Assembly: GCA_025054935.1 (NCBI GenBank)
Contig: JANWZD010000005.1
Coordinates: 1 to 64,000 of the forward strand
DNA length: 64,000 nt
Origin: Dehalococcoidia bacterium
Lineage (GTDB): Bacteria > Chloroflexota > Dehalococcoidia > SpSt-223
Direction of reading: 5' to 3'
Position 1 is the stretch's first letter; every line of letters starts with the position of its first letter. The translations under genes were made by a program, and so were the position numbers. The notes under the pieces were generated by a model. It made no database searches, was not told where the DNA came from, and saw nothing but the letters and a program-made list of their open reading frames with translations. Positions 52,778-54,119 of this stretch are shown here, piece after piece.

Positions 52778-52799
52778 TTGTCGCCACAATTGGCGACAA
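52778..52799. promoter_or_regulatory. 22-bp palindrome upstream of Rep-like gene
   Basis: TTGTCGCCA (52778-52786), CAAT, TGGCGACAA (52791-52799): a perfect 9-base inverted repeat, 155 bases before the promoter at 52954. It resembles an operator or an iteron-like binding site for the replication protein. Confidence 0.55.
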
Positions 52800-52953
52800 G
52801 GAGATTACGGCGCCAAGCTGTCCGCACGTCTGCCAAGCAGCGCTCGGCGGCCAGTCCAGTCCCGACACTGATGCCCGATCGGACTGGACACAATCTATAT
52901 GCTGGACTTGGATAAAAAGGCACAACATATTGCGGTTTCGTCAACTTGACTGC

Positions 52954-52983
52954 TTGACACGCCGCTTGATCCGCCGCTATGCT
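52954..52983 (+). promoter_or_regulatory. Promoter of Rep-like gene
   Basis: TTGACA (52954-52959), 18 bases, TATGCT (52978-52983), with transcription expected near 52990 and translation at 53033. An AT-rich, TTGAC-repeating patch (52880-52957, containing AACTTGACTGCTTGACA) lies just upstream. Confidence 0.65.
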
Positions 52984-53032
52984 GGCCGCCAAGCAGCGCG
53001 CCGGATCAACGGGCGCGCCCTCCTGAGACGCC

Positions 53033-53782
53033 ATGACCGAGACGTTCGTTTTTGAGGGATTTTCCGCGCCGGGCTACACCCAAGTACCCGATGAGTTCTT
53101 CGACGTCTGCCTGCCTCACCTCTCCGGCAGCGAAACGAAGGTGATGTGCTACCTGTTTCGCCGCACCTTCGGCTGGAAAAAGGAGAGCGATGCCGTCTCG
53201 CTCTCACAGCTGACTGACGGGATCGTGCGGCGCGACGGAACACGCCTCGATGGCGGCGCCGGGGTGACGCGCGAAACCGCCGCCAATGCCCTCCGCTCCC
53301 TCGAGCGCAAAGGCTTGATCGTCCGCGAGCCGCAGGTGCGCGCGGACGGCGGCACCGGAACAACCGTGTACCGCATCCGCTTCCGCACCCAGTCGGCCAA
53401 TCCGACCCCCCCGGGCAGAAATTCCGACCCGCCCCCTTCGGCGGCGCCGACTCCCCGGGTCGAGACCGCCGACTCTGTCCCGGTCGGCACAGTCGACCGA
53501 CAAGACTCACGATCCACAACAAAGAGATCGCACCAACCAGCAAACACCCAAGTCGATTGGCCCGCTCTTCGCAGTGCGCTCCGCGGGCGCTTCAGCCGCG
53601 CCAATTGGGAAACCTACATCGCGCCGCTTGCGCTCGAGCGCCTCGAGGGAGGACGCGCCATCCTGCGCGCGCCGACCCCTTTCGTCGCCGACTGGGTGCG
53701 GAGCCGGTTCGCCTCGGCCATTGCCACCGCGCTCGCCGAGGCCGCCGGACAGCCGATCTCAGTCGAGATCGTGGCCGCCTAA
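53033..53782 (+). CDS. Replication initiator-like protein with DnaA N-terminal-type domain
   Basis: A 249-residue protein with two domains. Residues 10-110 form a winged-helix domain like phage replication protein O / plasmid RepA heads: YTQVPDEFFDVCLPHLSGSETKV, CYLFRRTFGWKKESDAVSLS and VTRETAANALRSLERKGLIVRE. A Pro/Ser-rich linker (about 120-175) follows. Residues 180-249 match the N-terminal helicase-loading domain of DnaA: WPALRSALRGRFSRANWETYIAPL, ...RAILRAPTPFVADWVRSRFAS. DNA binding plus helicase recruitment is thus suggested. A good promoter, a palindrome and an AT-rich patch lie upstream, so it may mark the replication region of an integrated element. No ParB, primase or helicase gene follows. 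Confidence 0.7.
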   Translation: MTETFVFEGFSAPGYTQVPDEFFDVCLPHLSGSETKVMCYLFRRTFGWKKESDAVSLSQLTDGIVRRDGTRLDGGAGVTRETAANALRSLERKGLIVREPQVRADGGTGTTVYRIRFRTQSANPTPPGRNSDPPPSAAPTPRVETADSVPVGTVDRQDSRSTTKRSHQPANTQVDWPALRSALRGRFSRANWETYIAPLALERLEGGRAILRAPTPFVADWVRSRFASAIATALAEAAGQPISVEIVAA

Positions 53783-54119
53783 CCCCGCTTCGCGAGACGG
53801 GCCGGTCCGCGTTCGGGCAGTGGGCCGTGGCAGGCTCCGAGCGGTCTGCCGGCGCGGTGCGCGCTCGGAGAGGGGGCCGCTGCGGCGAGAGGCGCTTCTC
53901 CCTTTGGGCGAGCGCGCCGGCCGCGGTGCCGGCACATCGAAGCGAGGAGAACTGCGGCCGGCGCGTTGCCGAGAGCGGCTTCGCGATCGGCGGCGTCACC
54001 TGCACCTCGGGGGCAGTAACCAGTGCCGAAACGTCGTGGCAGACCAGCGCGCCGCGCCAGCCGGTCGCGCCCGGTGCCGGCCAAGTCGAACGGGCATCCG
54101 CAACCGGTTCGGTCAGGCG
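53783..54119. other. Non-coding gap
   Basis: No gene recognised between the Rep-like gene and the binding-protein relic. Part may be the eroded N-terminal half of that relic; I see no convincing frame. Confidence 0.45.

Follow-up and report, generated by a model that had tools for sequence, protein, structure and literature searches.

A chromosomal gene of a Dehalococcoidia bacterium encodes a 249-residue protein that joins a phage-type RepO winged helix to domain I of the bacterial initiator DnaA. The DNA coding for its linker carries four repeats followed by an A-rich tract, an order shared with its relatives, and the gene occupies one chromosomal place in two species. The window, the 64,000-nucleotide stretch of DNA analyzed as a whole, is part of a 194 kb contig in a 3.57 Mb Chloroflexota genome. 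The favored explanation, with a probability of roughly two in three, is that the gene is a vertically kept orphan initiator of the phage lambda O type, with its origin inside the gene and DnaA domain I for helicase recruitment. We infer that the fusion would bind iterons, open the strands and recruit a helicase in the following way. The N-terminal winged helix, probably as a dimer, would bind the four iterons encoded in its own linker, straining and opening the A-rich tract just downstream, and transcription from the conserved upstream promoter would help this opening. The C-terminal domain I would then attract the replicative helicase or a DnaI-like loader, replacing both the C-terminus of lambda O and the P protein. 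The features of the locus are listed in Table 1.

Table 1. Features of the fusion gene and its upstream region (positions in the window).
Feature	Position	Strand	Basis
Palindrome with 9-bp arms, TTGTCGCCA-CAAT-TGGCGACAA	52778..52799	.	Sequence; upstream alignment
Promoter/regulatory block common to two species, TTGAY repeats, moderately AT-rich	52880..52985	+	blastn match beginning at 52880; alignment
Sigma-70-type promoter, TTGACA-18-TATGCT	52954..52983	+	Shuffle test; hexamers identical in ortholog
Putative initiator gene, RepO winged helix + linker + DnaA domain I, 249 aa	53033..53782	+	Pfam, PHROG and PDB matches
Phage_rep_O winged-helix domain, aa 14-99, predicted iteron-binding	53072..53329	+	Profile match; dN/dS
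Iteron 1, CCGACCCCCCCGGGCAG	53402..53418	+	Repeat and matrix scans
Iteron 2, CCGACCCGCCCCCTTCG	53424..53440	+	Repeat and matrix scans
Iteron 3, CCGACTCCCCGGGTCGA, partial dyad CCGAC-N7-GTCGG	53447..53463	+	Repeat and matrix scans
Iteron 4, CCGACTCTGTCCCGGTCGG, dyad with N9	53469..53487	+	Repeat and matrix scans
Candidate unwinding element, the gene's most A-rich (46% A) and most AT-rich (52%) 50 bp	53502..53551	+	Base composition
DnaA_N (DnaA domain I), C-terminus, aa 176-235	53558..53737	+	Profile matches

Domain architecture and candidate helicase partners

Both domains score above the curated Pfam cut-offs: Phage_rep_O (PF04492) with 34.7 bits against 28.7, and DnaA_N (PF11638) with 43.5 bits against 24.6. 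These matches support the favored explanation and uphold the first-pass annotation, which had read the protein as a RepO-like winged helix plus a DnaA N-terminal-type domain and had called for a profile search of both; the C-terminal part does match DnaA domain I. In addition, PHROG 678 ("replication initiation O-like") matches aa 13-165 with 54.9 bits, and a phmmer search of PDB matched the C-terminus to domain I of Bacillus subtilis DnaA (4tps, E 2.8e-6). The fusion does not reach the stricter O-type model of NCBIfam, TIGR01610 (22.1 vs 45.5), or the NCBIfam DnaA model (28.9 vs 343.9). Pfam searches of its 249 residues found neither the AAA+ domain III nor the DNA-binding domain IV of DnaA, and neither a DciA domain nor an AAA+ domain of the DnaC/DnaI type. 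The AlphaFold model is of low confidence (pLDDT 60) and its Foldseek matches are weak, the best being the DnaD N-terminal domain, at the winged helix.

Since the sole other DnaA_N in the genome belongs to one ordinary dnaA on contig C6 (C6:78790), the fusion is an extra protein. Its domain I is only 26-29% identical to domain I of the genus's own DnaAs. In Escherichia coli, domain I contacts DnaB through Glu21 and Phe46, dimerizes through Trp6 and is bound by the phage protein YfdR, while domain I of B. subtilis DnaA is not known to bind the helicase (PMC5448010). The partner of the fusion's domain I could therefore be DnaB, a DnaI-like loader or another protein. From an ungapped alignment with the E. 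coli sequence, we take W176, F217 and W221 to be the counterparts of Trp6, Phe46 and Trp50; Asn191 presumably stands at the Glu21 position, so that one of the two DnaB-contact residues would be lost, which weakens the favored explanation. The kept counterparts of Trp6 and Phe46, together with the YfdR precedent, would also suit a regulator of chromosomal initiation, whose domain I would pair or compete with domain I of DnaA or with the partners of the latter, and whose winged helix would be an ordinary repressor or tether. Such a role is improbable, as it leaves unexplained the in-gene iterons and A-rich tract common to mobile relatives, and the low identity to the resident DnaAs also speaks against it.

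DciA was undetected in the window's genome and in all three genomes of its order, and was found in only 2 of the 148 genomes of the class, a distribution that might suggest the fusion as the cell's main helicase loader in place of DciA. This idea is disfavored and highly improbable, because all three of these genomes encode a DnaI-like protein with IstB-type AAA+ matches, which agrees with a report of domesticated dna[CI] in Chloroflexi (PMC5109545). Moreover, nearly the whole class is without DciA, yet RepO proteins are rare. The presence of both DnaA and a DnaI-like loader in the genome also weakens the case for an additional initiator. As a separate observation, the loader of the window's genome (L064:1071-2525, G000 contig C8; homologs in G400 and G401) combines a cysteine-bearing N-terminus with two tandem IstB-type AAA+ domains, a duplication that looks unusual.

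Repeats and A-rich tract inside the gene

The linker-coding DNA contains four units that each start with CCGAC and follow one another at a spacing of 22/23/22. Some of them form CCGAC-N7/9-GTCGG dyads, making the repeats partly dyad-symmetric, and the right half-sites of iterons 1 and 2 are weak. The A-rich 50 bp stands directly 3' of the array, and the ortholog shows the same iteron layout followed by an A-rich tract. When each gene was subjected to synonymous-codon shuffling (n=100 per gene, protein unchanged), the score of the observed repeats, which lie at offsets 0/22/45/67 in the window gene and the ortholog, was reached by 4/100 shuffles for the window gene and 1/100 for the ortholog, and by 0/100 in L068, L069, L070 and L014 and 0/100 in the viral L198, L200, L201, L203 and L204. 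Taken alone, the statistic of the window gene is thus modest, which counts against the favored explanation, while that of the relatives is strong. The viral contig L200 has offsets of exactly 0/22/45/67 (score 69/72), with four copies of CCCCTGTCCACA (one with a single mismatch) spaced exactly 22/23/22, and another viral contig, L204, carries GTTCACTGAGCG four times. With a matrix built from these sites, the in-gene array is the sole cluster of at least three such sites both in the window's 194 kb contig and in the ortholog's 1.02 Mb contig.

The first-pass annotation had made its origin proposal depend on repeats in relatives, and a repeat search did find direct repeats in several of them, located in the linker-coding DNA. 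Self-similarity lags are best at 22-24 or 44-46 bp in 9 of the 13 genes, always just after the winged helix, and more distant relatives, among them IMG/VR viral contigs and the ParAB-bearing replicons of a different Chloroflexota family, carry repeats of different sequence in the same place. In every relative with a linker and repeats, the 50 bp highest in A lie at or directly after the array. Within this tract, ACAAGAAACAGTT is exact in L004, L005, L006 and L069 and nearly so in others; in exact or near-exact form it follows the iterons of the O-type genes L004, L005, L006, L069, L198, L200 and L202, against a background of 4e-6 per base for matches with up to two mismatches. Because it is read in two different frames among relatives, ACAAGAAACAGTT points to a DNA element common to O-type genes rather than a protein motif, in support of the favored explanation. 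In the window gene and its ortholog the A-rich tract is kept and ACAAGAAACAGTT is not intact, a point on the other side.

The lambda origin lies within the O gene and consists of four repeats that bind O dimers, followed by a 40-bp A+T-rich region (PMC5043065). The window gene shows this feature of lambda-O-type initiators, in-gene iterons and then an AT-rich tract. The array and the tract after it, together with the lambda parallel, support the favored explanation, and the origin is probably inside the gene, as in the phage, not upstream.

An upstream origin had been proposed initially, from a palindrome, an AT-rich patch with TTGAC repeats and a strong promoter. The palindrome is really present, but alignment of the upstream regions revealed no counterpart in the ortholog. 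It was rejected as an origin on this ground, and it is probably not part of the initiator system. Only about 105 bp upstream (52880-52985) can be aligned between the two species, and DNA further out cannot. The promoter within this block occurs once, against 0.0 expected in shuffles, and both of its hexamers are identical in the ortholog. The patch holds up in part: it contains three TTGAY repeats and is moderately AT-rich, but the first repeat is degraded to TTGGT in the ortholog. No Rfam RNA matched the locus. The upstream origin itself has to be given up, since the palindrome is not conserved and the iteron-like repeats and A-rich tract, which the first-pass annotation did not mention, lie inside the gene instead.

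Chromosomal setting, selection and present role

The ortholog, 79% identical over 249 aa without gaps, comes from the metagenome-assembled genome Dehalococcoidia bacterium KatS3mg060 (G401) of the same genus. Collinearity of the two contigs starts at window position 0.5 kb and continues to about 75 kb, the gene lying in the middle part of this stretch. Its neighbors are UvdE, an acyl-CoA dehydrogenase and an MFS transporter in the window, and a glyoxalase, an esterase and a desaturase-like gene at the ortholog's locus; between window positions 53979 and 54540 lie fragments of two genes (a surface protein and an ABC-type substrate-binding protein) whose KatS3mg060 counterparts are intact. The neighbors tested included no phage or plasmid genes, and no P-like helicase-loader gene adjoins the fusion. 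Given about 75 kb of collinear chromosome common to KatS3mg060 and no phage or plasmid genes beside it, the gene is not a recent insertion, and this collinearity supports vertical descent. Mobile neighbors combined with absence from the same site in relatives, as for an integrated element, were thus not observed, the locus being collinear in KatS3mg060. No copy is seen in the third species of the genus, a point against the favored explanation, although its contig stops about 1.4 kb past the matching acyl-CoA dehydrogenase, before the expected place, and so does not establish absence. The idea of a second replicon was rejected: with 17 tRNA genes on the ortholog's 1.02 Mb contig and 4 on the window's, both are chromosome.

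The gene is under purifying selection. Between the window gene and its KatS3mg060 ortholog, dN/dS (NG86) is 0.19 over the whole gene, with 0.03 for aa 1-115 (winged helix), 0.24 for the DnaA_N part and a higher 0.69 for the linker; the low values of the two domains support the favored explanation. The lower NG86 dS in the linker (0.50 vs 0.9) was set aside, because third-position differences are at least as high there as in the winged helix. Between the two species, the left halves of the iterons agree at 19/20 positions, compared with 64/101 for the rest of the linker. Decay of an integrated plasmid or phage, with the gene as a remnant that no longer functions, would be consistent with the eroded neighbors, with the rarity of RepO proteins in the phylum and with the weak right half-sites of iterons 1 and 2. 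However, the intact frame in both species, the dN/dS of the winged helix and DnaA_N parts, the conserved promoter block and the conserved left iteron halves all argue against it, making decay an unlikely account.

No turning point of GC skew occurs at the gene, the cumulative minimum being 34 kb away on the window's contig and 132 kb away on the ortholog's. The gene is therefore unlikely to be the dominant chromosomal origin, and the lack of a turning point weakens the favored explanation. The initial suggestion of a chromosomal accessory initiator would be compatible with the locus, but nothing in the GC skew indicates that an origin is active there. As the present role, a conditional second origin and exclusion of related replicons both fit. 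It is only tentatively suggested that the gene forms a second lambda-style chromosomal origin, domesticated from a plasmid or phage, that recruits helicase through its borrowed DnaA domain I and is used conditionally, for example when DnaA-dependent initiation is blocked. Another possible, if doubtful, role is that of a decoy or incompatibility device, with no role as a chromosomal origin; by binding or titrating the machinery of related phages or plasmids, the chromosomal iterons and initiator would keep these elements from replicating. The occurrence of relatives on viral contigs and plasmid-type replicons, the lack of a skew signal and the arrest of lambda by extra copies of its origin (PMC4488673) are in keeping with such exclusion. 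However, iteron sequences differ among relatives, which would limit blocking to close relatives, and a close relative of the fusion was not found in phages, plasmids or viral contigs. That selection has kept a copy in the chromosome prompts the question of whether second origins are used conditionally, or whether mobile DNA is excluded by means of an origin.

Relatives and comparison with known systems

Within the phylum, RepO domains occur in only 9 of 400 genomes, a rarity that would be expected if the gene is accessory. The same two-domain order occurs in G025 (L066) and G073 (L012/L067), which pass or nearly pass both Pfam cut-offs (RepO match of G073, 27.3 bits vs 28.7). In G053 (L068), G158 (L069) and G302 (L070, L189, L190), the resemblance of the C-terminus to DnaA_N emerges only from profile-profile comparison, with a probability of 94% for L068, 97% for the G158/G302 group together and 17% for L070 alone. 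ParA and ParB lie beside the rep gene on the three G302 contigs, which supports the favored explanation. The G158 replicon C2 (1.07 Mb) has no tRNA genes, a ParA-like gene about 5 kb from its rep gene, and a GC skew only loosely consistent with an origin near that gene. The early proposal of an integrated plasmid or phage suits these ParAB-bearing replicons and the viral contigs. It does not suit the locus in the window, where other mobile genes are lacking and the gene order is collinear between two species. A full-length relative with both domains did not turn up in searches of phages, plasmids and viral contigs.

Several other arrangements were observed alongside. In G053, a free-standing DnaA domain IV protein (Bac_DnaA_C, 37.5 bits; L068:6301-6834) lies about 3 kb from the RepO/DnaA_N-like fusion (L068:2158-3069), placing DnaA-type pieces on separate proteins. 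An XRE-type regulator gene, absent beside the fusion in the window, is the immediate upstream neighbor of the RepO fusion in two further Chloroflexota families (L067:5762-6217, L068:3074-3466). On the 816 kb plasmid of Miltoncostaea oceani (L186:6010-10761), a RepO-like gene is followed by genes for an AAA ATPase and a DnaB-like helicase, so that here a megaplasmid carries a replication module in the style of a phage.

Among known replicons, the Chloroflexota family f78 (G302 C427, C106 and C289, and G158 C2) shares with the window RepO domain(s), in-gene repeats, an A-rich tract and the DnaA_N-like C-terminus noted above for the group. However, its proteins are longer and have an extra middle region, RepO is duplicated in G302, and partition genes lie beside or near the rep gene. 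The IMG/VR viral contigs L198, L200 and L204 likewise combine a winged helix with linker repeats at 22-24 bp spacing, and the spacing in L200 is that of the window, although their iteron sequences differ. The O-like initiators of these contigs and of PLSDB plasmids have other C-termini, with no DnaA_N by Pfam. These comparisons suggest that O-type initiators are modular, with a winged helix, an in-gene origin and a helicase-recruiting tail that can be exchanged, DnaA domain I being one such tail. In the literature searched, no paper was found that names Phage_rep_O and DnaA_N together; the parts are known, and no description was found of their combination as a chromosomally fixed O-type in-gene origin whose initiator ends in DnaA domain I.

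With DnaA itself, the fusion has only domain I in common, being without the AAA+ ATPase domain and domain IV. It thereby offers a natural means of testing whether DnaA domain I suffices on its own to recruit a helicase when the ATPase is missing. The closest parallel is phage lambda O with its origin, ori-lambda, where an N-terminal winged helix, four partly palindromic mid-gene iterons, an A-rich tract right after them and an upstream promoter reading through the origin are found as in the window gene. In contrast to lambda, the C-terminus is DnaA domain I instead of the P-contacting region, there is no P-like neighbor, and the gene lies in a chromosome rather than a phage. The domestication of such genes has a precedent in the pair DopC/DopE, which derives from lambda O and P.
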